Below the pieces are notes generated by a model. It saw nothing but the letters and a program-made list of their open reading frames with translations. It searched no databases and had not been told where the DNA came from. This document shows, in pieces, positions 6,467 to 21,232 of a stretch of 34,846 nucleotides of DNA (position 1 is the first letter of the stretch; every line of letters starts with the position of its first letter). The stretch covers positions 1 through 34,846 of IMG/VR virus record IMGVR_UViG_3300032284_000952; one strand, given 5' to 3'. The translations under genes and the position numbers were made by a program. This DNA comes from a virus.

Positions 6467-6709
6467 TTATACTAATACTAGTCTAGTATCACCTTCCGTT
6501 TTTTCTACTTTAACCCAACCATCATTGTTAAATTTATATCCTTCTCTTTGTTTAACTGAAACGATAACATGGTCAATTTTTTCTGCTATCCATCTTGCTA
6601 AACTATAATTATCTAATCCTGAAACTCTGAAGAAACCTACATTAGCGGCTACTTCCATTTCGACTTTCAATTGAAAGTCATTTTCAATTAAATCTTTAAC
6701 TTCTCTCAA
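6467..6709 (-). CDS. Hypothetical protein, TTG start
   Basis: An 80-aa soluble protein of unknown function. The N-terminus is a helix rich in acidic and hydrophobic residues (VKDLIENDFQLKVEMEV); the C-terminus is mixed (KFNNDGWVKVEKTEGDTRLVLV), suggesting a small alpha/beta fold. The start is TTG 6709, whose last two bases overlap the upstream stop (TTGA). AGGAAA lies about eleven bases before it. The preceding gene ends exactly there, so it depends on re-initiating ribosomes. It separates the capsid-protein region from the lysis cassette. Confidence 0.65.
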   Translation of the reverse strand: MREVKDLIENDFQLKVEMEVAANVGFFRVSGLDNYSLARWIAEKIDHVIVSVKQREGYKFNNDGWVKVEKTEGDTRLVLV

Positions 6710-7071
6710 TTTGGTGATTTCCTTGCAGTCATAAAATATTTTTTCTTTTTCTTTTTCATATCTACTGCTGTAGCACTTTGAGCATCAGTACCACTTTGTG
6801 GACCAGTTACATTAGTTGGTCCGGCAACAGAGGCTGCCCCACCACCTCCGCCTCCAGCCATTTCTCTAAACTGTTTGAATGTCTTTTTAACTTCTTCTTT
6901 TGTTAATCTATCTAATGCACGTTCAACACCTTTCTGGCGTTTTGGTTCTAATGTTTGATACATGTTCATAGGTTTATTGCCATGTTTTTTTCTATGGTCA
7001 TCACCTACTTTAGATAGATACCTTTCGGCTTTATCTTTGCTTATTTCATCAATCATTTTAATAGTTTTCAT
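6706..7071 (-). CDS. Single-module Lys/Glu-rich protein related to the giant repeat proteins
   Basis: A 121-aa basic protein. I chose ATG 7071 because it overlaps the upstream TGA as ATGA; three codons of alternative start lie before it. It opens MKTIKMIDEISKDKAERYLSKV, and a second block is KGVERALDRLTKEEVKK. Both blocks recur in the large neighbours (e.g. IDEISKELAGKYL and KGINKAVDKLSKEDVE in the gene at 10841-12427), so this is one free-standing copy of a shared module. A poly-Gly run and low-complexity Thr/Ala segment follow, then poly-Lys. The N-terminal M-K-T-x5-D-E also resembles the capsid-targeting pattern discussed for its neighbours. The function is unknown; a DNA-associated head protein is an inference. 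Confidence 0.7.
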   Translation of the reverse strand: MKTIKMIDEISKDKAERYLSKVGDDHRKKHGNKPMNMYQTLEPKRQKGVERALDRLTKEEVKKTFKQFREMAGGGGGGAASVAGPTNVTGPQSGTDAQSATAVDMKKKKKKYFMTARKSPN

Positions 7072-7607
7072 CTGCATTTCCATTTTCTAAGTGCAAGTGC
7101 TTTTCTTGTTGGTTCACCATTTGGTTTCTTCATGGCACCTTTCATACCACCCATTCTAGCACAGAATGATTTTCTGCGTTTAGCCGCTTTGCTACCAGGT
7201 TTGACTTTGCCTGTAACTGCCTTCTTCAACTTAGAACCAGGATTCTCTCTACGATATGATGCAATACCTTTTGCATTTAGACCACCTGTTTCACTCTTAC
7301 CTTCTTTTCTACGCCATGCGGCAGTTTCAAATAATTCTTCGTCTGAAACATCTTCAAGATTTTCCCAAAGAACATCTGGATCAATGTTGCTTTCTTCTGC
7401 AATATCATCAACTACTTCTTCGAGAATATCAAACAATTCTTCTGCATCATATTGCTCATAGAATTCAACTTCTTCGGGTACACAATTAGGAACTTTTCTA
7501 CCGTTTTTCATTTTCATACCAACGGCGGTATATCCTGTCCAACAAGCATTTTTAAGACTTCCTGTTGATTGTTTTACTTCGGTTGTAAATTGTCTGAATG
7601 ATTTCAT
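7068..7607 (-). CDS. DUF6321-type phage protein with possible capsid-targeting N-terminus
   Basis: A 179-aa protein of three parts. The N-terminus MKSFRQFTTE matches the ten-residue T4 capsid-targeting pattern with Glu 10. The segment with ACWTGYTAVGMK and VPNCVPEE (about 20-47) is one I associate from memory with T4-like cyanophage proteins. An acidic helix (FDILEEVVDDIAEES) links to a strongly basic C-terminal domain (GSKAAKRRKSFCARMGGMKG ... ALRKWKC), which resembles DUF6321. The basic Cys-containing domain could bind DNA. GAGGG lies just upstream of ATG 7607. I infer a head-packaged DNA-binding protein; the domain has no established activity that I know of. Confidence 0.8.
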   Translation of the reverse strand: MKSFRQFTTEVKQSTGSLKNACWTGYTAVGMKMKNGRKVPNCVPEEVEFYEQYDAEELFDILEEVVDDIAEESNIDPDVLWENLEDVSDEELFETAAWRRKEGKSETGGLNAKGIASYRRENPGSKLKKAVTGKVKPGSKAAKRRKSFCARMGGMKGAMKKPNGEPTRKALALRKWKCR

Positions 7608-7614
7608 ACGTCCC

Positions 7615-8001
7615 TCATATGTTCCTTAAAATTTCGGCTACTTTCATATCTATAGGAATTTCATCAGTCTTGATTACTTTTCCATTAATCGATATTGGTG
7701 TATTTGGCATCGAACTCAGGAATACTAAGAATGTCTTTAGAATATCATAATCTCTTTCATCAATTCTAAAGAACAAAATTTTTGCTGAGGCTTCTGCGCC
7801 AAACACATTATTTAAACAAACCAAATGATTGAAAATCAATCGTTCTTTCAATACCTTTGTTGCTTTGTATCGTCTAAACAATCTCTTTAAATACTTAGTA
7901 CGTTTCAAATCACCTTCGAACTCACTCATAATACAATGTGGTGATTCATAGGCTTTCATAGCGTAGATAATGAAGTTGTCATCATTCAAATCATCAATCA
8001 T
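7615..8001 (-). CDS. Conserved T4-like phage protein of unknown function
   Basis: A 128-aa soluble protein. The block SPHCIMSEFEGDLKRTKYLKRLFRRY (read in two parts: SPHCIMSEFEGDL and KRTKYLKRLFRRY) near residues 20-45, followed by KERLIFNHLVCLNNVFG, is a pattern I recall from hypothetical proteins in T4-like cyanophages. It is mostly helical and basic in the first half, so nucleic-acid contact is possible. No signal or membrane segment is present. The leader is A-rich without a Shine-Dalgarno, and the preceding gene ends nine bases upstream, so translation is probably coupled. Function not established. Confidence 0.8.
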   Translation of the reverse strand: MIDDLNDDNFIIYAMKAYESPHCIMSEFEGDLKRTKYLKRLFRRYKATKVLKERLIFNHLVCLNNVFGAEASAKILFFRIDERDYDILKTFLVFLSSMPNTPISINGKVIKTDEIPIDMKVAEILRNI

Positions 8002-8009
8002 ATTTTTTA

Positions 8010-8471
8010 TTATTCTTCTATATCGTCATCGTCCATATCATCATCATCTAATACATCACCTAATTGGTCTTCATCTAAAATAGATGCTGTACAATCGTAC
8101 AAACCTTTTTCATTTTGGTCATATATGAAATAAAAATAATATTCGTGTTCAACACCATCAGTATATGAAGTCACAACACCATCTAATGTAGCGCCATGTT
8201 TATCACCATATTGACTGATGGCTATAACAAGTTCACCTTCTAGTTCGTTCGTTATTCTAGTTTTAGGTAATGTGACGCCATAATGTTCCAAGGTCTTTCT
8301 GGCTTCATCAAACCCTTCCATTGGACTATACCATGTATGACTAGCAACCATCAATGCAAGATTTCTATTAATCTCATTTCTGGTTCTAACTTCATCAATG
8401 TTGTTCCAATACTTATTGACGGAGACCACAGGTACTCCGTCTTCAGCAACGAATTCACGAAATGTTAACAT
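8010..8471 (-). CDS. Small acidic-tailed protein with capsid-targeting-like N-terminus
   Basis: A 153-aa protein. Start ATG 8471 shares one base with the upstream stop (TAATG); an in-frame ATG 27 bases earlier would add residues that spoil a clean motif. From this start it reads MLTFREFVAE, which closely matches the T4 internal-protein targeting peptide MKTYQEFIAE (Glu 10, Phe 7, Ala 9 identical in place). The middle contains a beta-rich stretch (GVEHEYYFYFIYDQNEKG). The C-terminus is a very acidic run (DVLDDDDMDDDDIEE), like a DNA mimic or a scaffold tail. Function unknown; a packaged head protein is an inference. Confidence 0.75.
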   Translation of the reverse strand: MLTFREFVAEDGVPVVSVNKYWNNIDEVRTRNEINRNLALMVASHTWYSPMEGFDEARKTLEHYGVTLPKTRITNELEGELVIAISQYGDKHGATLDGVVTSYTDGVEHEYYFYFIYDQNEKGLYDCTASILDEDQLGDVLDDDDMDDDDIEE

Positions 8472-9094
8472 TATACGCCCGTGAATGCAGTACCCCAAGA
8501 GGTATTGCCAGAGAATGTATTAGATGCAACTGGATTTGCAAGTGCAACTAATGTTTCACGAATATAGCGTACTGTACCATCGCTGTTAGTTTTCTTTTGA
8601 ACGTGAGCCCAACCTTGTGATACACCACCAGCACCAATTTGAGTATTCGCTAAACGAGTTGCTGTAACTAAAACAGTATCCTTGTTGTATGTTGTTTCAA
8701 CTGGTTTGTTTGCATTATAAGCAATTGCTTTATCAAACTCAACACCATATCCAGCAGACACAGTATTAAACAAATTTTGTGCTAATGTTACTGTATTGCC
8801 GCTAATTGAAGCAACGGTTGTGTTTGAAAAGAACATACCTGGATAACCATTACCTGCTGTACCTTGAGCAACAGGTGACGAATTTCCTTGTGATAGGAAA
8901 TACACATATTGACCAGTAGCAACACCAACGTTGGCAACATTATTACCTGCACCGTCATTGTATGCAACTTGAATAATGTTGTTACCTGATGTATTACCAG
9001 TTAGAACTGTAAATTGTAAAACTTCTCTTGTTTGACGTTCAGCATCCCATTTTGGTTTTAGGTTTGGTGCGTCAGTATTTGACCATGTTGGCAT
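8471..9094 (-). CDS. Probable virion structural protein
   Basis: A 207-aa Gly/Asn/Thr/Val-rich beta-type protein. It starts MPTWSNTDAPNLKPKWDAER and ends with the block GWAHVQKKTNSDGTVRYIRE plus ASNTFSGNTSWGTAFTGV. I recall proteins of this general design in structural sections of T4-like marine phages, but no name is secure. It has no signal peptide, no cysteine and no membrane segment, and is rich in short repeats such as G-N-T-x-x-A and GNNVANVGVATGQ, typical of secreted or assembled beta proteins. GGAG is nine bases before the ATG. A late-promoter-like AATAAATA lies 33 bases upstream, consistent with late expression. Confidence 0.75.
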   Translation of the reverse strand: MPTWSNTDAPNLKPKWDAERQTREVLQFTVLTGNTSGNNIIQVAYNDGAGNNVANVGVATGQYVYFLSQGNSSPVAQGTAGNGYPGMFFSNTTVASISGNTVTLAQNLFNTVSAGYGVEFDKAIAYNANKPVETTYNKDTVLVTATRLANTQIGAGGVSQGWAHVQKKTNSDGTVRYIRETLVALANPVASNTFSGNTSWGTAFTGV

Positions 9095-9126
9095 TTTTTA
9101 TCTCCTTGAAAGCCTTGGTTATTAAC

Positions 9127-9134
9127 TATTTATT
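9127..9134 (-). promoter_or_regulatory. Putative late promoter box AATAAATA
   Basis: On the minus strand AATAAATA differs from the T4 late consensus TATAAATA at one base. It is in the short gap between two genes, about 33 bases upstream of the start of the probable virion protein. No -35 element is needed for T4-type late promoters. Similar boxes occur before other genes in this window. Confidence 0.4.
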
Positions 9135-9136
9135 GT

Positions 9137-10840
9137 TTATTTTTCTTGTCCTTTGATACCATCTTTTTTGTCATCCTTCTTCTTATCTTTGTCATCTTTC
9201 TTAGTGATATCAGGTTGACCGGGACGATTTCTCATCATTGGATCAATTTCTATCGTATCACGAGGAGTACCTGTTTCAGTTTTACCACCAGATAAGATTG
9301 AACGAGCGGATGGTTTCTTTTCACCAGCATTTTCTTCTTTGCCATCATTCTTTTCTAACTTAGGTTGTTTACCAGTTGGTTTTCCACCTTTGTCATCTTT
9401 TTCATGGTCATAGGTTTCTTCACTCATTTTTTTTTTATGTTTATTGAAGATTCCTTTAACCATCATAGCCGCATTAGATACATGTTCATTGAACTGTTCT
9501 TCTGTCATTTCTTCTTTTACATTATGTGATGTATGTCTTTTATCCTTAACTGTACCTAATAGATTATGTTTTTTACGATAGTGTAATACAGTAGCGGCAT
9601 CATTAACTTGGTCAAGATATTTACTTTCAGAACTTGGACTATGGTTCTTCATTGCTTTTGCGGCTTCACCAGCATCTTTCATGATGTAGCGTAATGCTTC
9701 ATCTGACTTGCTATGATATTCATGACCTTTCAAAGGCATTTGTGAACGATTATAATTTTCAATCAAATCACCATCAGGTTCATATGAATTAGCCAATTTA
9801 CCCATCATAGTTTCATTTTTCTTATTAGATGCATATTCAGGATAGTTCTTTTCAAATTCTTCACGATCCTTTTTTTGCTTTGCCAACATATCTTCTAATC
9901 GTTTTGCGCCTGCATCCATATCGTAGCCTGCTTTTTTCATACTACGTTTGAATTTTTCATGTGCAGATAGTTTTTGATATGCTTCATTATTAATCTCAAT
10001 TTTGTGAGATTTGAAGTCACCTTCTTTACCTAGAGGCTCATCTATTTGATGTTTAACACGACCTCTTAGCATATCTTTAGTTTGTTTTTTGTCATCAACT
10101 TTTTCGTTAACTACGTCTTCTTTCATGCGGTTCATTTTCCAAGTTTTGAACTTGCTTGACTGTGCATGTTTTTGTAAGTCGCTCTTGCCAACGTATTTTG
10201 GTTCCATACCTAATGATGATAGATAGTCACCTAATGATGATTCATCAATGTCCTTTTCTTCTTTATTCATAGCAGTCCTAATATCTTTAGTTGTATTTGC
10301 AATCTGTTTACCGGTAGCCTTTGTAATATTCATCCAACGGTCAGTTGATTGTTTATATTTACCTTTAGCACTCAAGTCATCAGCAGACTTTCTAGCCTTC
10401 TCTTTATAACGACCTAATAACTCATTACTCACTTCATCAATTACTTCTTCTGTCTTAGCAGAAGCCATTCTTGCATATGGATCCATCGGATTGTTGATAT
10501 CTTTTTTAGTCTTCATCTTACCTTTTGGATCAAGTGCATTGTCATCAATTTTAAAGCCACCATCATCCATAGCAGTATCAGGTTGATTCTTATACTCAAC
10601 CAGTTCTTCTTTTCTGATAATTTCTTCTACCATTTTTGATGATGTGGCTTGCATCACTTTCATCCAGTTTTCACCATACTTTGCTCTGAACTCCTTCTCT
10701 CTTTCTTTAAGGTCGTCCATCACTTCTTCACGCTTTTTCTTTTGCTTAGGCGTAAAGTCTTTGGTGTCAACTCGCAACAATTCTTCATCATCCTCTTTTT
10801 TGGATTCAAGCACTTGTTGAAGTTTTGCTTTAAAATTCAT
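9137..10840 (-). CDS. Giant Lys/Glu-rich repeat protein A (possible internal head protein)
   Basis: A 567-aa very hydrophilic protein with almost no cysteine, low in aromatics. It is a string of helical modules: EEVIDEVSNELLGRYKEKARK (about 131-151) followed by the basic KQSTDRWMNITKATGKQ, then EEKDIDESSLGDYLSS (about 194-209), and later VKEEMTEEQFNEHVSNAAM. These share the K/E-E-x-I/L-D-E linker and Leu-x-x-Tyr helix of the next gene. The C-terminal 100 residues are a poly-Lys/Asp/Gly low-complexity tail ending in GQEK. ATG 10840 directly abuts the upstream stop, with AAAGGTGAG just before. It is not a known enzyme. I infer a scaffold or ejected internal head protein from composition and neighbours. 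Confidence 0.8.
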   Translation of the reverse strand: MNFKAKLQQVLESKKEDDEELLRVDTKDFTPKQKKKREEVMDDLKEREKEFRAKYGENWMKVMQATSSKMVEEIIRKEELVEYKNQPDTAMDDGGFKIDDNALDPKGKMKTKKDINNPMDPYARMASAKTEEVIDEVSNELLGRYKEKARKSADDLSAKGKYKQSTDRWMNITKATGKQIANTTKDIRTAMNKEEKDIDESSLGDYLSSLGMEPKYVGKSDLQKHAQSSKFKTWKMNRMKEDVVNEKVDDKKQTKDMLRGRVKHQIDEPLGKEGDFKSHKIEINNEAYQKLSAHEKFKRSMKKAGYDMDAGAKRLEDMLAKQKKDREEFEKNYPEYASNKKNETMMGKLANSYEPDGDLIENYNRSQMPLKGHEYHSKSDEALRYIMKDAGEAAKAMKNHSPSSESKYLDQVNDAATVLHYRKKHNLLGTVKDKRHTSHNVKEEMTEEQFNEHVSNAAMMVKGIFNKHKKKMSEETYDHEKDDKGGKPTGKQPKLEKNDGKEENAGEKKPSARSILSGGKTETGTPRDTIEIDPMMRNRPGQPDITKKDDKDKKKDDKKDGIKGQEK

Positions 10841-12427
10841 TTACTCACCTTTTGCTTGTTTAGTTGCAACGGCATACATTACTGATTTGCCTTTCTTTTC
10901 ACCATAACGTTTTTTGAAGTCTTTCAATTTTGGTTTCATTGCCATTACGTTATGTTCTTTTTTCTTTGTTTCTGCGGAAGACAATGAACGCTCATCGAGT
11001 TCTTCAATTTCTTCTTTTCTGATTCCAAGTTTATCTACACCACCACGATGTCCAAACATACTATCTACTGCTCTTGCGGCTTTTAATTCTGATTGTGTTG
11101 CACCCGCTTTTCTTGCGGCTTCTGCATGTTTAGGATCACCAGACTTAGCATACTTTGCTAATAGTTCTTTTCTTGTGCCACCTTGGTTTTTTGGATTATA
11201 ATCTGTAACACCAGTAGTTTCATCTAACTCAACTTCTTCTTTCATTTTGATGTTTTTTACAGGCTCATGTTTTTCAACAGCAGATAGTTTGTAATTCTTA
11301 TATGCATCTGTTCTTAACAAATCATGTGCTTGAGAAACTGCATCTTCGTCATTCTTAGCAGTTAACAAAGCCATGCTTGCCCATTTGTTTGTAGTTGGAT
11401 CATCAAAGTGAGCCGCATGAGTAATGTTTGCTTCATCTAATTCAAATTCTTCTTTTTTCATCATAGCATTCTGTTTCACTTTTCTAAGTGCAGAATTCAC
11501 ACCTGGGATTCTGGATTTCCCATCCTTACCTTGAAAATTTTGGTGCCCTGCTTTCTTCACATATGAACTCAATGCTTTTGTTGATAATTCTACTAGTGTA
11601 TTTTGTTCTTGTTCAACTTCTTCTTTCATATCTACACCAGCCGCTTTCATAAACTTCATATGGTCAAAACGTGGGTTTTGTTGTTTGAAGATTCCAGCAT
11701 GATGTAATGCTAGTTCGTGTCTTTTCTTCGCATCAGGATGTGCTTTGATAATATCTGCAACTTGTTGGAAATGTTTGCGTGATACTGCTTCATCCAATTC
11801 AACATCTTCAATATCTTCTTTATAGTAATCTGGTTTCTTATATAAAGAACTGCTTTTGCTTCTAGCCAATGCTCTATGTACAGAGGTTGCATGTTTTCCC
11901 ATTGTTTCAATGTCAGGATACTTTGATTTACCTTCACCTGTTTTATATTTGTTTGCACCTTTACCGTGTGGTGCAGTCAAATATTTACCGGCAAGTTCTT
12001 TAGAGATTTCATCAATTTGCTCAACATCTTCTTTTGATAGTTTATCAACTGCTTTATTGATACCTTTCTCACGCTTTGCACTAGTCTTTGCAAGAGCCAT
12101 TTTATCTTTGCTATCACCACGCTTGTCATATTTCATGCCGTGTTTGAAGTCAGCCATGCCACCAGCATAGTGTGCTTTCTTAATATAGTTACCAAGAGTT
12201 TTCTTCGACAACTCATCTAACTCTTCCGCTTCTTCTTTCTTAACAGTTACTGGCATTGTTTTGCCACCTAACTTGAAAGTTTTTTTGCCATCTTTTGCGG
12301 CGGCATGTGCGGCGGCATGTAAGCCTGTTTCTTTTACATCATCTTCTGCAAAAGATTTTTCTTTCATAACTTTTTTAACTGCTTCAACCAATGACTGGTC
12401 TACGTTGTGTCCGAATTTGGAAAACAT
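10841..12427 (-). CDS. Giant Lys/Glu-rich repeat protein B (possible internal head protein)
   Basis: A 528-aa charged protein built from mini-modules separated by acidic linkers of the type K-E-E-[VIF]-x-x-[LI]-D-E. Copies include EEAEELDELSKKTLGNYIKKA (two parts, EEAEELDELS and KKTLGNYIKKA), DVEQIDEISKELAGKYL, DIEDVELDEAVSRKHF, KKEEFELDEANITHAAHF, KEEVELDETTGVTD and KEEIEELDERSLS. Between linkers lie small basic helical pieces with no recognised enzyme motif. The C-terminus FKKRYGEKKGKSVMYAVATKQAKGE is strongly basic. Most linkers contain L-D-E or I-D-E, which fit the I/L-x-E cleavage rule of T4 prohead protease. GGAG precedes ATG 12427, which overlaps the upstream stop by one base (TAATG). 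Confidence 0.8.
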   Translation of the reverse strand: MFSKFGHNVDQSLVEAVKKVMKEKSFAEDDVKETGLHAAAHAAAKDGKKTFKLGGKTMPVTVKKEEAEELDELSKKTLGNYIKKAHYAGGMADFKHGMKYDKRGDSKDKMALAKTSAKREKGINKAVDKLSKEDVEQIDEISKELAGKYLTAPHGKGANKYKTGEGKSKYPDIETMGKHATSVHRALARSKSSSLYKKPDYYKEDIEDVELDEAVSRKHFQQVADIIKAHPDAKKRHELALHHAGIFKQQNPRFDHMKFMKAAGVDMKEEVEQEQNTLVELSTKALSSYVKKAGHQNFQGKDGKSRIPGVNSALRKVKQNAMMKKEEFELDEANITHAAHFDDPTTNKWASMALLTAKNDEDAVSQAHDLLRTDAYKNYKLSAVEKHEPVKNIKMKEEVELDETTGVTDYNPKNQGGTRKELLAKYAKSGDPKHAEAARKAGATQSELKAARAVDSMFGHRGGVDKLGIRKEEIEELDERSLSSAETKKKEHNVMAMKPKLKDFKKRYGEKKGKSVMYAVATKQAKGE

Positions 12428-14364
12428 TATTTTGCTCCTTTATTGTTTTTCTTCTTTTTAATTTCGATTCCGATATTTCTATCTTTATCTTTGTATGATT
12501 GCATTGGTTCACTATTAGTAGCACCATGATATCCACCAGACACACCCATATCAGATGCAGGACTATCTATTGCTTCTCTGAATGATTTGAATGATTTTGG
12601 TTTTGTTTCTTCACCATATGTAGTATTACCAAGACCACTCATTGGATATACAGTACCAGAACCTCTTGTAGCAAACTCAGGACCTAGACCAGTAACTTTT
12701 ATTCTCTTAGTTGGTTCATTTGGTACAGAAGCCGCCTTCTTCTTTACTTTTTCGTTGTCTTTTTGGAAGTTGGGCTCTTTTGGCTCTGGGATTTTGGTGA
12801 GGGTTGGACCGTCTTCTTTGATGCTCTCGGTTTCTTCGTAGGTGCGGAAGGTGTAACTTCCTGGGTTACCTGGGACGTCACCGTACTTGATTTCGTCTTT
12901 TTTACCGGCGATTCTACCGAGTTGACAGGTTGGGCAGTTGTTGTCTGCGATGAGTTTTCCGTGTCCACAGGTGTCTTTGGCTTTAGTTTTAGTAGGTATG
13001 CTATCTTCTTCAACATTTGTTTCCTCTCCTCTAAGGGATTGTTTTAGTTTATCAATTGATTTTTTATGAATCTCTGAATCTTGTCGCATCTTATCTCTAC
13101 GAGATTTGATTAGATTCTTCAACGTATCTTTTTGATTTGTTGAATGAGGTCCAATTTCGAATAGTTTTGCAAATTCATTGTTAAAGTTTTCAACAACAAC
13201 TTTTGCTTTTTGACCATAAAACAATTTAGTAGTCATTAGCAGTTGGCTGATTTCTTCTTCAATTCTTGCAATATCAAATACATCTGCTTTATCAAAATCG
13301 ATTGTATTATCAAAACGAATGAACAAATCAAATGCTTCGTTATATACTTTTGCATTTTCTTGTGATTTAATCCACTTGTCTTGACGAACATCTTCGACCA
13401 TCATTCTGGTCAACTTTTGATTTCTACTTGAACTAGTTTCATTAGTTGTATCTACGAAAATCATCATTGTTTCGTAACCAAGTTCTTCTAGTTCTTCTTT
13501 AACATATTTGATACGGTCAATATCGTTTGCAGAACCATTGATAATTAAAGGCTTGTGTTGTTTGATAGCATTACGTCTTTCGTCTTTAGTGCTTTCTGAT
13601 AATTTGTGTTTATCTGCTAAAAATTCAAATGCTTGTATTGTGTTAATTTCTACTGCTCTGCCTTCTGCAATAGCATCACGAATAACAGTATCTTTTCCAC
13701 TACCAGGACCACCTGTAATGAATACTGCTTTATATAATCCATGCTGTACATCTTCATTGATACCCATGCCTTTGCGTAAATCACGGAATAATTCTTTGCT
13801 ATGTTTCTCTGGAACGTGGTGAGGTATACCTTGCTTAAATGAATTGAAGTCATTATTCTTTGCATGTTCACGCATCTTGGATGCAGACATACCTTCTACA
13901 CCTTCTGCATCTGGATCACGTTGACCAGCAGACTTGACTTCAATCTTTTTGAAGTTGTATAGTTTGCCTTCACCTTCACCATTATATTGTTCTAGTTTCT
14001 TTTTGAATTCGTCTACTCTATCCGAACCAGCAACCATGATTAGATGGTCGTGTCCCATCTTATGCAATCTTGCGGCATGTTGCAAAAATGTTGGTTCTTC
14101 TTTACTTGAATTTTCAATATTCGTATTTGGAAATAAACGTTTTGCATGTTTCACTTTAGTTGCTACATCAAGTGGATCTTTCTTTGCATTTTGTGAATGT
14201 GAAAGAATAACATGATGTGGTGCATTATGGTCTGCGGCAATTTGTTTTACTTTATTGACCAACTTCTCGTGACCAATGGTAGGAGGATTCATACGACCGA
14301 ACGCCATCACCACCGGATGGTGCGTTTTTGTATCCTCATGCAGTTTTTCTAAAAATGTTTTCAT
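12427..14364 (-). CDS. Fusion: NMNAT/cytidylyltransferase-like + P-loop kinase + zinc ribbon
   Basis: A 645-aa multi-domain protein. MKTFLEKLHE (1-10) fits the capsid-targeting pattern. Residues 17-200 form a HIGH-superfamily nucleotidyltransferase: AFGRMNPPTIGHEKL (21-35) and the late motif MSASKMREH (159-167). Residues 210-380 hold a kinase-like P-loop domain with Walker A GGPGSGKDT (218-226), similar to zeta-toxin/AAA_33 kinases. Then comes a charged linker, a CGH...CPTC zinc-ribbon-like piece (Cys 466, His 468, Cys 477, Cys 480), and a Gly/Pro-rich tail with KSFKSFREAI near 590-599. NMNAT plus kinase recalls NadR of NAD salvage; an RNA-end kinase role is an alternative. Substrates are unproven. 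Residues about 461-538 use unusual codons (see findings). Confidence 0.82.
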   Translation of the reverse strand: MKTFLEKLHEDTKTHHPVVMAFGRMNPPTIGHEKLVNKVKQIAADHNAPHHVILSHSQNAKKDPLDVATKVKHAKRLFPNTNIENSSKEEPTFLQHAARLHKMGHDHLIMVAGSDRVDEFKKKLEQYNGEGEGKLYNFKKIEVKSAGQRDPDAEGVEGMSASKMREHAKNNDFNSFKQGIPHHVPEKHSKELFRDLRKGMGINEDVQHGLYKAVFITGGPGSGKDTVIRDAIAEGRAVEINTIQAFEFLADKHKLSESTKDERRNAIKQHKPLIINGSANDIDRIKYVKEELEELGYETMMIFVDTTNETSSSRNQKLTRMMVEDVRQDKWIKSQENAKVYNEAFDLFIRFDNTIDFDKADVFDIARIEEEISQLLMTTKLFYGQKAKVVVENFNNEFAKLFEIGPHSTNQKDTLKNLIKSRRDKMRQDSEIHKKSIDKLKQSLRGEETNVEEDSIPTKTKAKDTCGHGKLIADNNCPTCQLGRIAGKKDEIKYGDVPGNPGSYTFRTYEETESIKEDGPTLTKIPEPKEPNFQKDNEKVKKKAASVPNEPTKRIKVTGLGPEFATRGSGTVYPMSGLGNTTYGEETKPKSFKSFREAIDSPASDMGVSGGYHGATNSEPMQSYKDKDRNIGIEIKKKKNNKGAK

Positions 14365-15552
14365 TTAAAAGTTTCTCATTCCTGCAAAGTTTCTTCTACT
14401 GAACTTTGCTCTATCTACTAGTTTATCGATTTGTCCTTTATGATGGAATACATATCCTTCACCTTCTGCTTTTTCGCCATGGTGAGTATGTTCAAAATCT
14501 TCATGCTGATTCATTGTATCTAACAATACACCTTTTGCTTTTTGTAGATGACCATGCATTTTAAGCAAATTATTATAATGTTTCTTATTTGCTTCAATCG
14601 CATTCAAATGAGTTTTTAATTCTTCTTTCTTGGCGTTTTTACCTTTTTCACTTTTTAATTTTTCAATCATCTTCTCATACTTAGTTTCTAAGTGTTTCTT
14701 GAAGTTTTCGTGATTTGGTGTTTCACCAGTTCTGACTGTATGGTTTATATATGTTTCCAAATGACCACCCACACCTTGATGCATGTCTGTACCTGCGTAC
14801 ATCTCACCATGTTCATCGTGGATTTTCTTTGCGGCTTTCATATGTTTTTCAAACTCTTTTTGTGCTTCGTTTGAAAAATGAACTTTTGATGTATCTTTTC
14901 TTGGGTCAACAGTAAATACATCTGGATGCTCTTTGAAGTTTTCACGGTCAACATTATGGTCAGCCTTCATGCTGGATGAATCCTCACCATTATATTTTAG
15001 ATGAGTTACAACACCAATCTTAGCGGCTTTTGCTTTCTTTGCTAAGTTGCCATGTGCATGATATGTAAGACCTGAAGGATTAGGATGAAATGATGCAACA
15101 CCATTTTTGTGTTCAATATCATCATCTGAGAACATCATATCGCCTTGATAGACACCTTGCTTAGGTGCAGTCTTCTTCAAGTGCTTTAATGCTTGTTTTA
15201 GTTTGTTTGCTAAACCTGGTGCATGACCATGGTTCTTATCTACATCTGCTTCGTTATAGTTGATTTTTGGTTCTTTGTTGAATGCAGATTTTGATGCAAC
15301 AAAGAATTTACCAGTTTTAGGATGATGTCCATATACTAATGCAGGTGAGCCATCATACTTAGTAGTTAATTCTGATGTATTTTTGCCAGACTTAATATGG
15401 TCTGCGATAGCATTTAAAGAAGACATAGCATGTTCGGTTCCTTTGGAACCAGTCTGCAAGGCACGATCCTCAATATGGGTTAAATGCTTAACCTGATGAG
15501 ATTCACCCTCACCTTCTTTTTGCTCTCGTAGATATGTTTTGAATGATTGCAT
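14365..15552 (-). CDS. RNA-ligase-like nucleotidyltransferase (DUF6267-type) with capsid-targeting-like N-terminus
   Basis: A 395-aa protein with signatures of the covalent nucleotidyltransferase/ligase superfamily: motif I K-Y-D-G-S-P (K65, candidate AMP-accepting lysine), a motif-III-like VYQGDMMF (134-141), motif IV EGYVFH (365-370) and a motif V lysine in DKLVDRAKF (377). Between III and IV lies a helical Lys/His-rich insertion (about 225-350). The longer ORF begins with TTG at 15579; I prefer ATG 15552 because it gives MQSFKTYLRE, matching the ten-residue capsid-targeting pattern, although no clear Shine-Dalgarno is seen. It directly precedes the kinase/nucleotidyltransferase gene (TAA then ATG), so the pair are probably partners. 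Ligase activity is an inference from motifs. Confidence 0.78.
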   Translation of the reverse strand: MQSFKTYLREQKEGEGESHQVKHLTHIEDRALQTGSKGTEHAMSSLNAIADHIKSGKNTSELTTKYDGSPALVYGHHPKTGKFFVASKSAFNKEPKINYNEADVDKNHGHAPGLANKLKQALKHLKKTAPKQGVYQGDMMFSDDDIEHKNGVASFHPNPSGLTYHAHGNLAKKAKAAKIGVVTHLKYNGEDSSSMKADHNVDRENFKEHPDVFTVDPRKDTSKVHFSNEAQKEFEKHMKAAKKIHDEHGEMYAGTDMHQGVGGHLETYINHTVRTGETPNHENFKKHLETKYEKMIEKLKSEKGKNAKKEELKTHLNAIEANKKHYNNLLKMHGHLQKAKGVLLDTMNQHEDFEHTHHGEKAEGEGYVFHHKGQIDKLVDRAKFSRRNFAGMRNF

Positions 15553-15600
15553 TTTTTTATTATTTTTATTTGAAAACAACGCTCTGTGGTTGCCATAACA

Positions 15601-16053
15601 CTATTTAGCATTTTTTTTAAGTTGCATTACATATTTGCTACAAACGCCCATGCATTTTTCATCCCAAGTCGATATGTCACTATTCCATTCTGGCTGTACG
15701 CATATACTATTTTCAGTCAAAGGCTTACCTGGATATGTCCAAATAAACCCATTTGATGTTACTGTATAGTCATCATTTTGATGCCAAAAAAACTCAATGA
15801 ATGGTATGATGTGACGAACTCGGTTCAATGCTTCTAAATTCTTACAATGAAGCCATAGATTAGTTCTGCTTAAAAACTCTCTGTCCACACGATATTGTGG
15901 CTCATTGTGTCCTAGGAACCATTTGTCATCTTTAAACCATACATCAACTTCAGCATTAAACCCTTCATTAAGGGCTTCCATAATAGTGTCTGGTCGATTC
16001 TCTCTTGATTCATCAGGACCGTCTATAAGCCCTCTATGTGCAATATATATCAT
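15601..16053 (-). CDS. GDPD / phosphodiesterase-like protein
   Basis: A 150-aa short member of the glycerophosphodiester phosphodiesterase-like TIM-barrel group. The N-terminus IAHRGLIDG carries the H-R-G motif (6-8), ENRPDTIMEAL matches the E-N-x-x-x-x the family uses after it, and FNAEVDVWFKDDKWFLGHN supplies the E-x-D metal pair (E35, D37) and the second His (H49). Full GDPDs are about 250 aa, so this is a reduced barrel. It may remodel glycerol-phosphate-type lipids or surface polymers. Its ATG overlaps the upstream glycosyltransferase stop (ATGA), with GGAG before it. It is the last gene of the carbohydrate island. The substrate is unknown. Confidence 0.75.
   Translation of the reverse strand: MIYIAHRGLIDGPDESRENRPDTIMEALNEGFNAEVDVWFKDDKWFLGHNEPQYRVDREFLSRTNLWLHCKNLEALNRVRHIIPFIEFFWHQNDDYTVTSNGFIWTYPGKPLTENSICVQPEWNSDISTWDEKCMGVCSKYVMQLKKNAK
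15602..15609 (-). promoter_or_regulatory. Possible late promoter box GCTAAATA
   Basis: GCTAAATA on the minus strand retains TAAATA of the T4 late consensus TATAAATA. It lies about 50 bases upstream of the ligase-like gene start at 15552 and overlaps the end of the GDPD-like gene. It would separate expression of the putative head proteins from the carbohydrate island. The match is weak. Confidence 0.25.
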
Positions 16054-16763
16054 TGATATTGCTCCTTAGGAACATACTCTCCTTTCGGTGTATGCATAAT
16101 CGTCTTAGAGATATTGAATTCTTCCCAAGGCAAACCTAGTTTTTTAATCCAGTGCGTTGATACCACATGAGGACAAAGCAGATTTGTTTCTTGGTAAATA
16201 TAAGGAAGATAATTTAATACCTTACAAAAATTGGTAACAAAATATGAATTACCAATCTGCATCATATCACCAGTACCTTGACCTAAATGGTTTCTGTGAC
16301 TTAATGTGTAGAATTTGCTAGGATGAAAATCTGGTAAATCTTCGTTATAAATCATATCTGGTCGCAAACGCAATACCAAGTCATATGTTCTACCTGTTCT
16401 CAGCATAAAGTCTTCCATCATCAACATACCTTGTCCCATTTTGTACATCATCGAAATGATATTTTTTGGTACATGATGGAAATTTGTATAGACTGATGCT
16501 CTATCTTCAAAATTTTCTTTGTGGTCTTCAAAATTCTCAACTCGCATTTCAGTTGCTTTAAATGCATCTGCTACTGCTTGAAAATCAATCTCTGGTGTAC
16601 CTTCAACAAAGCCAGCCTTGCTATGTGGATCCCAATATGCTTGGTCACGCCATGTATGAATGAATACATCTGGCTTGTAACGTTCTAAAATTCTCTCATT
16701 GAAGTTAGGTGCTACTTGGTCCCAACACCTCATGTGTCCTGTTAATACAACTGCAACTCTCAT
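16050..16763 (-). CDS. Glycosyltransferase-like protein
   Basis: A 237-aa protein. The N-terminus MRVAVVLTGHMRCWDQVAPNF and FIHTWRDQ are typical of a phage/virus glycosyltransferase-like family in which LVLRLRPDMIYN (near 131-142) supplies an R-x-D metal-binding element. I recall this as an uncharacterised, GT-A-like family; no sugar is assignable. There is no signal peptide or membrane helix, so it acts in the cytoplasm. AGAGG precedes ATG 16763. It overlaps the downstream GDPD-like gene by four bases (ATGA) and lies two bases after the FkbM methyltransferase gene, in a coupled operon. Probably it helps decorate phage or host surface glycans. Confidence 0.78.
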   Translation of the reverse strand: MRVAVVLTGHMRCWDQVAPNFNERILERYKPDVFIHTWRDQAYWDPHSKAGFVEGTPEIDFQAVADAFKATEMRVENFEDHKENFEDRASVYTNFHHVPKNIISMMYKMGQGMLMMEDFMLRTGRTYDLVLRLRPDMIYNEDLPDFHPSKFYTLSHRNHLGQGTGDMMQIGNSYFVTNFCKVLNYLPYIYQETNLLCPHVVSTHWIKKLGLPWEEFNISKTIMHTPKGEYVPKEQYQ

Positions 16764-16765
16764 AA

Positions 16766-17359
16766 TTAAATCCTCTTAAAATGTATGTCTGCTTCTTTAC
16801 CAACAGCATCGGGAACTAGTGTACATGAAAATCCTTTGCTTTCTAACCAAGGCGTAATTACACCAACATGATTATCTGTATTCTTATATAAATCTACTGT
16901 ATATGCACCTTCACACTTACCTTCTTTGATATCTGCAATTCTATCACCTAATGATTTCAATACATTGAAGTCGTTTCCTTGTGCATCAATCCAAAGATAA
17001 TCAACTTGACCTATGTTGTAGTCATTCATAAAAGTATCCAATCTAGTTGTTGGTACTTTATATGATGTTGCAACATTAAAATGACCTTCTCTACCTTCCC
17101 ATTGTTGATAGATATCATCACTAAAGTTATATAGAGATGAGCACCCTACATCTGTTGCGACATTAAACATTTTAAATGTTATCTCAATATCGATTGCCAT
17201 AGGCATCAAATGAAACCTATCAATACCTCTAAACTTATTATACAAGTGATTTACCAACTCAGGTACAGGTTCAAATGCATAAACAATTGTATTTGGATCA
17301 CTTAAAAAGTTTTCTGTATCTGTGCCTGTGTTTGCACCAACTTCAATTACTGTTGTCAC
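16766..17359 (-). CDS. FkbM-family methyltransferase
   Basis: A 197-aa SAM-dependent methyltransferase of the FkbM type, which O-methylates sugars or polyketides. VIEVGANTGTD (about 4-14) is the glycine-rich SAM loop, VYAFEPVPELV is motif II with the acidic Glu, and WIDAQGNDFNVLKSL fits the FkbM IDVQG-E-x-x-VLKG block. An in-frame GTG at 17410 would lengthen the protein by 17 aa, but I chose GTG 17359 because it overlaps the upstream TGA as GTGA and has GGAG eight bases before it. The protein then begins directly before the SAM loop, slightly short for the family. Confidence 0.85.
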   Translation of the reverse strand: MTTVIEVGANTGTDTENFLSDPNTIVYAFEPVPELVNHLYNKFRGIDRFHLMPMAIDIEITFKMFNVATDVGCSSLYNFSDDIYQQWEGREGHFNVATSYKVPTTRLDTFMNDYNIGQVDYLWIDAQGNDFNVLKSLGDRIADIKEGKCEGAYTVDLYKNTDNHVGVITPWLESKGFSCTLVPDAVGKEADIHFKRI

Positions 17360-18723
17360 TTGTGATGCTCCAAAAAGTAGTTCAAATCTTCGGGTGTTCC
17401 AATACCCCACATCTTTTCAATATTCTTTGTACGAATTTTCTTGCCGTCTGCAATTGCTTCATTGAACACAGGACAAACATAGAATTCATTGTTAACACGA
17501 ATATTCTTGTTAATCATTTGTTCAGCATACTTTACATAATCTGAACCATGTTTCCAATAGTATATACCAACAGTAGCAACATTAGAGATTGGATTCTTTT
17601 CTGCAACTTCCGATACAAATCCATCTGAATTAAGTTTTGCGAAAGACCATTTTGGATGAGTTGATTCAAATGTGACAATCCCACCATCAATAGTGTCAGC
17701 AGTAAAAGCATATAAACATTCATTAGAGTTCCATTCTACAAATTGGTCAGAATTAGCCATCAACAATGGTTCATCATTATTAATGAGTTCTTTTGCAAGT
17801 AGTGTAGTACATGCGGCACCTTCTGTCAATCCATCTACTTGAATGATATCGCATCCTGGTGCGATTAAGTTCAATAGTTGTTTTAGATTATACTTCTCAT
17901 AGTGTTCTTTCTGAACAATATAAATGAAATGTGCATCTACGTTTAAGTTTTCAGTCACAACTTGAATCATTGGTTTACCATCAACTTCAATCAATGGCTT
18001 AGGAAATGTATAGCCTGCTTGTGCAAATCTGCTACCAGCACCAGCCATTGGAATTAAAACGTTCATCTTTTTATTTCTCCATGGTATATTTTTCTTTAAT
18101 GCGCCATCTGCAAATTCATTACAGTAGTCTATGAATGATGGGTTTAGGTCGTATGCATCTTTAACTGGATACAAATTAGCACCAGAGTTAGTTGCACCTT
18201 CTCTACCAATATGACTGTCTTCTACAATGATGGTATCTTTAGGTAATGCATTCAATGCAACCATACATTTCCAGTACATCTCAGGAAATGGTTTTGCTTG
18301 AAACACATCTTCATTACTAACATAGTAATCTACCATACCAAGAATGCTCATTGATTCAAGTGAGATACGAACTGTTTCACGAATGCTATTTGATGCTACT
18401 GCAATTTTCCATCCTTTTGCTTTCAACTGCTTGATGATGTTAAATGCATGTTGATTCTTTGGTGCATTAGGAATCAACTTAAATGTTGCATCTTGTTTTG
18501 CTCTCCAAATTGCATTGTAGTGTTCTCTAGCCAGACCTTTATCTGTACTGAGCATTTCGAGTTTCTTTGTTGTGTTTAGACCATCATATTTCGATAGGTG
18601 TTCTTCACGAGAAATTACATATTGCTCATTAATTTTGCGTAGTGCATCATTCAATGCATCATAATGTAATTCTCTCGAATCAATCAATACACCATCAAGG
18701 TCAAAAATAACTAACTTGTTCAT
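17356..18723 (-). CDS. Fusion of HAD phosphatase and sugar nucleotidyltransferase
   Basis: A 455-aa bifunctional protein. Residues 1-215 are a HAD phosphatase of beta-phosphoglucomutase type: DLDGVLIDS (D8, D10), VASNS (109-113), K144 in QAKPFPEMY, and VEDSHIG (168-174). Residues 220-455 are a nucleotidyltransferase: NVLIPMAGAGSRF (221-233), then FPKPLIEV with the catalytic-type Lys, and a Rossmann-like middle. It ends EKMWGIGTPEDLNYFL, typical of the family. The pair would remove a phosphate from a sugar precursor and make the NDP-sugar for the glycosyltransferases encoded beside it. ATG 18723 overlaps the upstream stop (ATGA). An internal ATG at residue 220 (18066) has GGAG ten bases upstream, so the second domain may also be made alone. 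Confidence 0.87.
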   Translation of the reverse strand: MNKLVIFDLDGVLIDSRELHYDALNDALRKINEQYVISREEHLSKYDGLNTTKKLEMLSTDKGLAREHYNAIWRAKQDATFKLIPNAPKNQHAFNIIKQLKAKGWKIAVASNSIRETVRISLESMSILGMVDYYVSNEDVFQAKPFPEMYWKCMVALNALPKDTIIVEDSHIGREGATNSGANLYPVKDAYDLNPSFIDYCNEFADGALKKNIPWRNKKMNVLIPMAGAGSRFAQAGYTFPKPLIEVDGKPMIQVVTENLNVDAHFIYIVQKEHYEKYNLKQLLNLIAPGCDIIQVDGLTEGAACTTLLAKELINNDEPLLMANSDQFVEWNSNECLYAFTADTIDGGIVTFESTHPKWSFAKLNSDGFVSEVAEKNPISNVATVGIYYWKHGSDYVKYAEQMINKNIRVNNEFYVCPVFNEAIADGKKIRTKNIEKMWGIGTPEDLNYFLEHHK

Positions 18724-19586
18724 GTGATTTTAATAGTAACTATATCGTCTGAAATGACTTGTGTTGTTTTAGGAACTGTATCGTTAAAATTATTAAACAA
18801 TACAAACGGGTCGTATCCTTTTTGATGGTCAGGAATTGTGTGCAATTCAAATGCATTAATATTGTTTATGTATGATAGTAACCACAAGCCTTGGTCATCA
18901 TCAACAAGATTCATCTTTTGTAGAGCATTGAAACTTTCCCACATCATACGTTCCATATCTGCCCATTTATTTTTGTGTGCTACTACTTTTGCACCAAGAA
19001 TGTATACATCATTTTCAAGTACAACATCTTCAATTGGTTTACCATCGTATGGTTTGTAGTTGAACATATGAATTTTTTCTTCATCAAATTCATATTCCCA
19101 CTTTGCACTCTTTGGTATCTTTGTTGCATCTCTGCAATACCCAAAGTCAATCCAAGCAACCATATCATTTGTTGCTAGACCTTGTTTAATTGCTGTGTTA
19201 ACAAAATATGCTTTCAAGTCAGTCACAAGAACATAATCAGGATTCCAGTATTCAGGATTCTTAACTTGTTGTGGATGAACTCTGCTTTGAAAGTCAGGAT
19301 CCTTTTGTATTTTTTCAATCTTCATACGAATATCTTGCATTCGTACTTTGGGATCAAAAATAATCCATTTAGTTTTGTTTTGTTTTGTTAGCCGATGTTG
19401 TTTCAAACGCTCAATCATGTCTTCTGTAGTGACTATGATTAATTCATTATCTAATTTGGCTAGATGTGAGAATCGTTCGATGTAGATGTCTACTGAACGT
19501 TCTAGGTAATGAGGCAATCCTTTGTCTGGTGTCCAACCACCTCGACCTATATCAAAGAATGCTGTAACAATTGTAATATCTTTCAA
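18720..19586 (-). CDS. HtrL/YibB-like glycosyltransferase
   Basis: A 288-aa protein opening with ITIVTAFFDIGRGGW, the N-terminal block of the HtrL_YibB family (PF09612 from memory), proteins found in LPS and capsule loci. DYVLVTDLKAYFV (about 118-130) and VAWIDFGYCRD are consistent with a GT-A-like core with D-x-D-type acidic residues. No membrane segment is visible. The start is TTG 19586 with a good GAGGTG six bases before it, and it is the first gene of the coupled block that ends in the GDPD-like gene. A late-promoter-like CATAAATA lies 44 bases upstream. Its C-terminal tail SDDIVTIKIT resembles that of the neighbouring gene. Confidence 0.8.
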   Translation of the reverse strand: MKDITIVTAFFDIGRGGWTPDKGLPHYLERSVDIYIERFSHLAKLDNELIIVTTEDMIERLKQHRLTKQNKTKWIIFDPKVRMQDIRMKIEKIQKDPDFQSRVHPQQVKNPEYWNPDYVLVTDLKAYFVNTAIKQGLATNDMVAWIDFGYCRDATKIPKSAKWEYEFDEEKIHMFNYKPYDGKPIEDVVLENDVYILGAKVVAHKNKWADMERMMWESFNALQKMNLVDDDQGLWLLSYINNINAFELHTIPDHQKGYDPFVLFNNFNDTVPKTTQVISDDIVTIKIT

Positions 19587-19629
19587 ATCACACCTCGCAT
19601 ATTTAGTTTTTTACTTACTGTTGATTATG

Positions 19630-19637
19630 TATTTATG
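19630..19637 (-). promoter_or_regulatory. Putative late promoter box CATAAATA
   Basis: CATAAATA on the minus strand differs from T4 late TATAAATA at the first base only. It lies in the 57-base gap before the TTG start at 19586, the largest gap inside the carbohydrate island, so it probably drives the downstream block from HtrL-like to GDPD-like. Confidence 0.4.
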
Positions 19638-19643
19638 TCACTA

Positions 19644-20528
19644 TCAAATCTTGATAGTAATCATGTCATCGTTGTTGGTAATTTCATATTTTTCATTGAA
19701 GAAAGCCAACATTTCGGGTACTCTGTCGTATTGATGTACGATAGCAAACGGTTCTTTATTCTTTCCATCTTTAACTAAACCATCTTCAAAGATTGGTCGT
19801 TCTTCCAATAAATATGGACCAAATTCTTGAAGTTGGTCAGGCTTATTTGTCACATGCAAATTACATGCCCATGCATCACGCAAACGTACAATATCAGTAC
19901 AACTCTTGTATGGTTCCCAATTCATTAAAATGTTGTATGCGGCTTGGTCTGCAACCCAATCTGGTCGATTCATAGACAACTGAAAAATCATACCACACAA
20001 ATCTTTTACTGCTTCTGCTTTACCTGCAATAGTACCAACATTCAATACTTCTTTATCTTCTACATCAACTGCAAAATGTGGTCCGAATGTTTTAAAAATA
20101 TTATCTTTATTCCATGCTTCATCTTTAATCTTAATTCCTTCAGATACGGCAAGCAAACTTACAGGATTGATTCTTGCTGAATTCTCATTCATAACCTGTT
20201 CAATAAATGGAATTGGATCACGTTGGAAAATAACATCACGAACATCAGTCGTAATTACATAACGATAGTCATCTAACCGGTCTTTTAGAAAACTGTAGAT
20301 ATGAACAAATCGTTCCATATGAACCTGTACTCTACTATCAGATGAATCTACACTCAATACACCAAAACCAGAATCAGTTAATTTTTGATTAGTCTGAACG
20401 GTTGAGTTGATTGATATAACAACCTTATCACCTTTAAATCCACATGTGTTGATTGAATCAACCCAAGGTTTGACTTTGTTAAAGTCGTAGTTCTTAAATG
20501 CACCGATAATTAAATCTTTTTTTGCCAT
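19644..20528 (-). CDS. Glycosyltransferase-like protein (GT-A type)
   Basis: A 294-aa protein with a GT-A-like layout: N-terminal Rossmann start (DLIIGAFKNYDFNKV), then YRYVITTDVRDVIFQRDP near residues 88-105, where D-x-R-D is the likely metal/nucleotide-sugar site, and later NVGTIAGKAEAVKDL and WVADQAAYN. I recall similar sequences annotated as glycosyltransferases in marine phages. Sugar and acceptor are unknown. GGAG lies seven to eight bases before ATG 20528, which overlaps the end of the upstream GT2 gene by 19 bases. The C-terminus NNDDMITIKI closely resembles the end of the HtrL-like protein although the bodies differ. Confidence 0.78.
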   Translation of the reverse strand: MAKKDLIIGAFKNYDFNKVKPWVDSINTCGFKGDKVVISINSTVQTNQKLTDSGFGVLSVDSSDSRVQVHMERFVHIYSFLKDRLDDYRYVITTDVRDVIFQRDPIPFIEQVMNENSARINPVSLLAVSEGIKIKDEAWNKDNIFKTFGPHFAVDVEDKEVLNVGTIAGKAEAVKDLCGMIFQLSMNRPDWVADQAAYNILMNWEPYKSCTDIVRLRDAWACNLHVTNKPDQLQEFGPYLLEERPIFEDGLVKDGKNKEPFAIVHQYDRVPEMLAFFNEKYEITNNDDMITIKI

Positions 20529-21232
20529 GGCAATTCTCCATTATATTTGTTCAACATTTGTTCATTACCGTGTAGGAAGAATTCTTTCTGTACGGACAGT
20601 TGCGTATTTCCTGTACGATAGTTCAGAGTATACTCTTTATTAGTGTTGCATGTCAACTTGTTTTCTCTCAATACATGTGTTAATATGCGGTCGACTTCAG
20701 GTACACCAGGTTCTCTTGCTTTACGATACCACAATGGACTTAATTGTAATGCAATATTCTTAGGCAAGAAATAACAACCCACATCAACAAAATAATCACC
20801 AATGCATGATTCCCATTTACCTAATGATTCACAGTCATCATTACAAACATAATTACCATCTTTGTCTACAATTTTGCGTAGAGAAAATGCCCATGCATTA
20901 TTTTGTTTAATTACTTCCATCAATGATTCAATATGATTAGGTTCAAACCAATTGTCTTCATCTAAGAAACAAACATAGTCACCTTTTGCAAGATAGATTG
21001 ATGCACCATAGATTCGATGACCATTGTATCTATCTGTACCTGTTGCGTAGGGTAATTTGATAATATCTGTTCCAGGATAATCTTGTAGGATGATTCCAGC
21101 AGTAGCATGTGGACCATCAACGACAACTAAGTGTTGCACATTATCGTATGTTTGTGATTTAACAGATTCAATTGCTTGCCGTAGATAGGGCGCACCTGTC
21201 GTAGGTGTGATAACTGTCACCAATGGATTCAT
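20510..21232 (-). CDS. Glycosyltransferase family 2
   Basis: A 240-aa GT2 enzyme that transfers a sugar from a nucleotide sugar in the cytoplasm. PLVTVITPTTGAPYLRQAIES is the family N-terminus (nucleotide-binding strand and helix), VQHLVVVDGPH gives the first Asp, and KGDYVCFLDEDNWFEPNHIE carries the D-x-D-type metal site. RTGNTQL and the aromatic C-terminal part could hold the acceptor. The protein has no membrane helix. GAGG is seven bases before ATG 21232. It is the first gene of the island, two bases downstream of the conserved 93-aa gene. Confidence 0.9.
   Translation of the reverse strand: MNPLVTVITPTTGAPYLRQAIESVKSQTYDNVQHLVVVDGPHATAGIILQDYPGTDIIKLPYATGTDRYNGHRIYGASIYLAKGDYVCFLDEDNWFEPNHIESLMEVIKQNNAWAFSLRKIVDKDGNYVCNDDCESLGKWESCIGDYFVDVGCYFLPKNIALQLSPLWYRKAREPGVPEVDRILTHVLRENKLTCNTNKEYTLNYRTGNTQLSVQKEFFLHGNEQMLNKYNGELPWQKKI

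Follow-up and report, generated by a model that had tools for sequence, protein, structure and literature searches.

Genes with a shared ten-residue start

The window (the whole stretch of DNA analysed here, 34,846 nucleotides) is a 34.8-kb fragment from a T4-like phage. It carries UvsX-, gp41-, gp43-, and primase-like genes, most of which lie on the minus strand. It is without head genes, and gp21, gp22, and gp23 are absent from it. Four of its genes begin with a similar ten-residue leader (Table 1). The minus-strand starts at 7607, 8471, 14364, and 15552 translate exactly as an earlier note on this DNA had quoted them, with Phe at position 4 and Glu at position 10 in 4/4. This combination is limited to these four among the forty-four likely window genes, against 0.14 expected from composition (binomial P ~ 1e-5), and we rejected a chance origin on these numbers. 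Over all position pairs in the first twenty residues of the same genes, Phe 4 with Glu 10 is also the commonest residue pair.

Position 7 is Phe in the leaders at 7607 and 8471, Lys at 14364, and Tyr at 15552. Position 8 is Val at 8471, Leu at 14364 and 15552, and Thr at 7607, in the DUF6321 protein; since Thr is not hydrophobic, that leader has the weakest putative cleavage site of all. For the genes at 8471 and 15552 the reading frame stays open upstream to TTG codons, and their homologues begin at the quoted ATG.

Table 1. Leaders, leader-bearing genes, and their neighbours in the window.
Position	Strand	Feature	Basis
6706..7083	-	Small protein with IDE-ISK module, internal KKTFKQFRE, and Gly-rich tail	
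7068..7607	-	Small basic protein with C-terminal DUF6321 domain	DUF6321 2.3e-22
7578..7607	-	Leader MKSFRQFTTE, atypical Thr at 8	Sequence and homologues
8010..8471	-	Acidic protein of unknown function with leader MLTFREFVAE	Leader kept in homologues
8442..8471	-	Leader MLTFREFVAE	Sequence and homologues
9137..10840	-	Another Lys-rich protein, candidate of the type given for 10841..12427, start MNFKAKLQQVLE-SKK, three [IL]DE sites	
10841..12427	-	Lys-rich protein that may be cut by gp21 at several sites or be an internal protein of the head	[IL]DE sites
12427..14364	-	Putative nucleotidyltransferase/P-loop kinase fusion	CTP_transf_like, phrog_3041, fold
14335..14364	-	Leader MKTFLEKLHE of the adenylyltransferase/kinase fusion	Sequence and homologues
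14365..15552	-	DUF6267 protein, RNA/DNA-ligase-like nucleotidyltransferase (predicted)	Pfam, predicted fold, motifs
15523..15552	-	Leader MQSFKTYLRE of the DUF6267 protein	Sequence and homologue alignment

Between the DUF6267 gene and the helicase gene, positions 15601–21232 hold a gene cassette whose products resemble glycosyltransferases, methyltransferases, and HAD/nucleotidyltransferases; HTVC008M and Melnitz have a single gene in this place. A second, short DUF6267-like ORF at 21509–21976 has no leader and matches the C-terminal helical part only (E = 4e-4).

The leader across relatives

The DUF6267 protein has homologues in 465 isolated phages and the nucleotidyltransferase in 531, mostly T4-like marine cyanophages, with HTVC008M and Melnitz in addition. 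We also fetched 160 IMG/VR loci with homologues of either protein. Across the window, these loci, and the relative genomes, 228 of 4,174 distinct ORFs begin with ATG and have Phe or Tyr at position 4, Leu, Ile, Val, Met, or Phe at position 8, and Glu at position 10. Over the same ORFs, other residues at position 10 gave counts of only 8–25, moving Phe/Tyr to positions 2, 3, 5, or 6 gave 13–22, and moving Glu to 11, 12, or 13 gave 23–39. Glu at position 9 is also elevated (seventy-three ORFs), which fits a form of the leader one residue shorter (e.g. MRFRQFIIE).

Family clustering at an E value of 1e-3 chained unrelated families and was replaced by a comparison of profile matches at N-termini and at internal methionines. 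The leader profile, trained on the DUF6267 and nucleotidyltransferase families only and used with a score cut-off of at least 8, matched 3.1 per cent of other N-termini versus 0.05 per cent of 14,055 internal methionines. The 111 matches group into about thirty-two clusters, a number that is only approximate because some clusters merge or split families. The comparison of N-termini across homologues that the earlier note had proposed shows a leader that is conserved and common to many unrelated families, an outcome in the note's favour.

In an alignment of thirty-two DUF6267 proteins, Phe 4 is kept in 28/32, Tyr or Phe at 7 in 30/32, Leu at 8 in 24/32, and Glu 10 in 27/32; residues 11–20, behind this conserved leader, are variable and often gapped. 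Met 1 and Phe 4 are invariant in thirty homologues of the fusion protein, whose leaders include MKSFLELVEE and MKSFLQIIEE. The Lys at position 7 of the window's fusion protein recurs in many of them, and others have Leu or Ile. Homologues of the acidic protein, for which a Pfam search gave no match, start with MLGFREFILE (locus L130), MIKFHDFVVE (L155), and MIGFRHFISE (L133), and those of the DUF6321 protein with MKTFKSFITE, MKTFKHFLEE, or MKTFKEYLNE, the DUF6321 homologues having Leu or Ile at position 8.

The tagged proteins of relatives include DUF6321 proteins, small Gly-rich proteins, a HAD phosphatase (L035, L243) that matches the PHROG ‘polynucleotide kinase’, and, in L072, a protein with a weak likeness to PF05618. 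In L243 (positions 14951–19145; genome G003) leader genes lie within the head cluster: a 93-aa gene is just upstream of gp21, and the leader-bearing HAD phosphatase gene is just downstream of a putative gp23. Some Kyanoviridae, namely S-SM1 (L267), S-SZBM1 (L269), and P-HM2 (L006), have a DUF6267 protein without the leader (e.g. MAKNTHLEHLED), so packaging of DUF6267 would not be universal. In S-SM1 and S-SZBM1 the leaderless DUF6267 gene adjoins a cytidylyltransferase gene that does have the leader, and the two form a natural pair for testing the tag.

Agreement with the T4 capsid targeting sequence

Mutagenesis of the T4 IPIII leader showed that residues 4 and 7 direct targeting and that residues 8 and 10 control cleavage by gp21 (PMC9026906). 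The earlier note had called the window's leaders T4-type, and they do agree with the T4 capsid targeting sequence (CTS) at these functional positions. As a control, the same scan over 75 kb of T4 matched IPII and IPIII only. The search for a gp21-like protease that the note had also proposed was positive in relatives: PF03420 was found in 12/12 full-length relatives (G001–G005, W01–W07) and in three partial relative records. The gp23 sites of relatives (LLTE-A, FLAE-A, ILTE-A, VLTE-A, and IFE-A) match the x-E type of the leader.

Sites of this type are not confined to N-termini. In nine long ORFs DUF6267 is fused behind another protein, and in 9/9 the junction is [IL]xE, with the domain anchor five residues further on, although these fusions are probably related and do not count as nine independent events. 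Judged from these sequences, a putative gp21-type site is kept at DUF6267 junctions even far from the start codon.

A shared start might instead reflect the common ancestry of duplicated genes, or selection on translation initiation or on the nucleotides themselves. MKSFKQF-like starts occur in several families and could spread by recombination at gene starts, and the Lys codons of the leader are mostly AAA. However, the tagged bodies have unrelated folds (ligase-like, adenylyltransferase, HAD phosphatase, and DUF6321), and E-terminated sites in the fusions lie far from any start codon. Ser 3 is encoded now by TCN, now by AGT, which places selection at the level of the protein; on this ground, and because Leu, Ile, and Val interchange at position 8, we rejected a nucleotide-level signal at the gene start. 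We regard ancestry or initiation as a very improbable source of the shared start. The leader is far better explained as a T4-type CTS than in any other way, and this explanation is very probably right.

Predicted enzymes behind the leaders

The product of 14365..15552 matches Pfam DUF6267 at 1.5e-93. Its AlphaFold model has a pLDDT of 88.5, with the leader disordered (pLDDT <50 for residues 1–21), and the best fifty VIA-align rows for the model are all RNA or DNA ligases, led by one with Z 8.0 and an rmsd of 3.9 over 184 residues. Foldseek E values were above 0.1, and as Foldseek alone is weak, we take the model to indicate a likely but distant member of the covalent nucleotidyltransferase (RNA/DNA ligase) superfamily. 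Ligase motifs can be placed at K65-Y-D-G68 (I), E365-G366-x-V (IV), and K377 (V), with a III-like motif that we read as Q136-G-D138 in place of DGE. K65, D67, G68, E365, and G366 are invariant in the thirty-two homologues, and V368 and K377 are each kept in 31/32.

In the fusion protein, an adenylyltransferase domain (about residues 15–204) is followed by a P-loop domain (about 208–355) and a disordered tail. Profile matches are to CTP_transf_like (6.7e-5, above the cut-off) and phrog_3041 (4e-69). Residues 15–204 have a predicted CoaD/NadD fold (Z 12.8–14.8) with a conserved NPPTxGH motif. The P-loop itself, GGPGSGKD, is nearly invariant in the thirty homologues, 23/30 of which give a weak Zeta_toxin match over this domain; polynucleotide kinase and adenylate kinase folds head the structure matches. 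On the predicted fold, residues 208–355 are a putative P-loop phosphotransferase. The motif NRDDYR, which we take to be T4-PNK-like, is not evident in the domain. NadR is a fusion of an NMNAT and a kinase, and it is not among the fold matches listed for the fusion protein. No relative emerged when PDB sequences were searched with the alignments of DUF6267 and of the fusion protein. The earlier note had spoken of two enzymes, which holds at the level of domains (a ligase-like DUF6267, and an adenylyltransferase with a P-loop domain), the activities being predicted only.

The leader could be a true CTS and the cargo still be mainly basic, DNA-condensing filler, with any enzyme activity incidental or late. 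Some tagged proteins are indeed small and basic (the DUF6321 type), and the T4 internal proteins Ip1–3 are binding inhibitors and not enzymes (PMC12373910). The invariant ligase residues and the strictly conserved adenylyltransferase and P-loop motifs count against this reading, as filler has no need of conserved catalytic motifs, and we consider it unlikely.

Lys-rich and small neighbouring proteins

The protein at 10841..12427 contains six [IL]DE sites against 0.3 expected, and some of these open a repeated LSKxTLxxYxKKA module. Repeats of this type recur in relatives, with Glu at P1 in 13/14. Its only homologues in named phages are in Caulobacter phage Cr30. Both Lys/Glu-rich proteins of the window (9137–12427) have repeats that open with [IL]DE-[LIV]SKxTLxxYxKKA. 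In S-SCSM1, gp280 is likewise Lys-rich, has ELDE at the corresponding position, and is annotated as a virion protein. T4 gp22 and gp67 are cut at several sites in the head, and the same is plausible, though tentative, for the Lys-rich proteins. Only [IL]DE is enriched in them, and not [ILV]xE sites in general, so that the idea of a polyprotein at 9137–12427 stays tentative as well.

The Gly-rich tail of the small protein at 6706–7083 corresponds to a free-standing leader protein in L134 (16140–16328), L130 (17559–17738), and L110 (16038), which starts MKSFKEYIQE-MGAG. The window's version keeps a degenerate internal leader (KKTFKQFRE) at the fusion junction behind its IDE-ISK module.

Leader proteins in published virions

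The earlier note had staked its claim on virion proteomes. We found none for this phage or for a close freshwater relative, and the evidence comes from more distant relatives, in whose published virions leader proteins, including homologues of the nucleotidyltransferase, are present. In the parts of four published virion proteomes that were scanned, seven of ten leader proteins were detected versus 1.9 expected (P ~ 5e-4); the count takes in every leader ORF in those parts, and for two records it uses approximate gene totals. As far as these relatives go, this outcome too is in the note's favour.

The S-CREM2 virion list (PMC10665884) comprises 52 of 219 proteins and includes 4/4 annotated leader ORFs (P = 0.003; P = 3.5e-4 among non-structural proteins). 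These are a SAM hydrolase (MKDFDSFLEE), an APH-like kinase (VKRFDAFLTE), gp136 (MQTFSMFFSE), and a cytidylyltransferase (MKNFSSFLTE). The virion-detected gp13 of this phage has MKDLHSFLTE. Another virion-detected protein, gp12 (L264, 7704–10313), annotated as Cas9, has RFASFMAE-A near residues 18–25, a stretch whose sequence suggests a misplaced start or an extended tag.

In S-SCSM1 (PMC9602691) the virion-detected NMNAT starts with MKSFLQFLKE, and its neighbours gp089, gp282, gp280, and gp279 in the corresponding block are annotated as virion proteins; the DUF6321 protein of this phage carries the same annotation. Within the portions of the other two proteomes that were covered, the detected T4-GC190 of S-SM1 (PMC3037559) starts with MKKFSAFLNE and the detected cytidylyltransferase S-SZBM1_140 (PMC9146016) with MRFRQFIIE. 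The leaderless DUF6267 protein encoded next to S-SZBM1_140 is absent from those portions of the S-SZBM1 virion list. The leader proteins undetected in the parts scanned are S-SCSM1 gp030, S-SZBM1_191, and S-SZBM1_192, of 105–165 aa.

Cytidylyltransferase- and kinase-like proteins were reported from cyanophage virions before, with no mechanism of entry, and authors of the proteomes allowed for co-purification. The leader might accordingly be a signal for a chaperone, a membrane, or a replication site, with presence in virions due to co-purification, and the three undetected proteins would sit well with that. Against it, the S-CREM2 list has all of the annotated leader ORFs while abundant replication proteins are not listed, and in L243 leader genes are neighbours of gp21 and the putative gp23. 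The pattern of leader positions also equals that of the T4 CTS, and the hydrophobic residue at 8 with Glu 10 makes a protease site that recurs internally at fusion junctions. We therefore think co-purification improbable and retain the CTS.

Proposed packaging and its meaning

We propose that the CTS sends the four window proteins to the prohead core and that they are internal proteins of the head in this T4-like aquatic phage. Positions 4 and 7, with their aromatic or hydrophobic side chains, would dock on the core scaffold; on closure of the shell, the gp21-family protease would cut after Glu 10 (hydrophobic P3, Glu at P1), and the cargo, freed within the head, would be ejected along with the DNA. 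The tag would be a portable module that lineages gain or lose on many unrelated genes, and lineages may also fuse cargo domains, leaving gp21-type sites at the joins. The earlier note's idea that this phage packs enzymes in its capsid and injects them is largely supported, and for the window's own proteins we infer packaging, cleavage, injection, and an enzymatic role. It is probable that aquatic T4-like phages come with a set of ready-made enzymes in the head and inject it, a kit that would act in the first minutes, before phage gene expression.

What such a kit would do is less certain. With a tagged, 3'-phosphatase-like HAD protein near DUF6267 in L035, the ligase-like and P-loop proteins make a set that resembles healing-and-sealing enzymes, and we tentatively suggest that the cargo processes nucleic-acid ends or nucleotide cofactors on entry. 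An NAD-related role, as the authors of cyanophage studies proposed, is equally open. Perhaps a packaged repair and cofactor kit, partly made as polyproteins cut at gp21 sites, counters host nucleases or NAD-depleting defences before expression begins, a suggestion that we hold with the same reserve.

The earlier note had thought an enzyme payload of this kind new, which goes too far: packaged enzymes as such are known from T4 Alt, and some of these very enzymes from cyanophage virions. Within the open-access literature searched, what appears to be new is the link between tag and cargo in these phages, the breadth of that link, and cargo of ligase-like and kinase type. The leader would explain the ‘non-structural’ enzymes of cyanophage virions, and the first ten residues could predict which uncharacterised phage genes encode packaged effectors. 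Some 460–530 sequenced isolates have homologues of the tagged enzymes, and the T4 CTS/gp21 system, discussed in the open-access literature for other phages, would extend to widespread phages of lakes and oceans.

Comparison with known systems

The ejection proteins of giant phages of the phiKZ/SPN3US type are also large internal cargo, cut on the C-terminal side of Glu by a protease related to gp21; for these we know of no described ten-residue leader with Phe 4 and Glu 10. In its predicted ligase-like fold and in motifs I, IV, and V, DUF6267 is similar to the T4 RNA ligases Rnl1 and Rnl2, the fungal tRNA ligase Trl1, and the Pnkp/Rnl/Hen1 repair systems, and its P-loop and HAD partners resemble healing enzymes. 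Unlike these enzymes, DUF6267 is known from sequence and model, with an identity to them of about 10–14 per cent and a fold Z of about 8. The repair enzymes of T4 are made after infection.

The cytidylyltransferase/NMNAT-like virion proteins of the cyanophages S-SM1, S-SCSM1, S-CREM2, and S-SZBM1 share a homologous domain and the same leader with the window's fusion protein, which differs in adding a putative P-loop kinase domain. The ADP-ribosyltransferase Alt of T4 is likewise a packaged and injected enzyme, and its N-terminus, MELITELFDE, has Glu at position 10. Alt is nevertheless unrelated to the window's cargo, has Ile at position 4 and a seven-residue propeptide, and is also cut at its C-terminus.

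The closest likeness in the leader itself is to IPI, IPII, and IPIII of T4 (MKTYQEFIAE; IPI starts MKTFKEF). Both have a length of ten, an aromatic residue at 4, an aromatic or hydrophobic one at 7, a hydrophobic one at 8, and Glu at 10, and in both unrelated bodies stand behind a common leader, with a gp21-family protease in the relatives. The aquatic phages differ in having mostly Phe at position 4 and Ser, Thr, or Lys at position 3, and in that their cargo includes conserved enzymes and multi-domain fusions and is not limited to small host-specific inhibitors.
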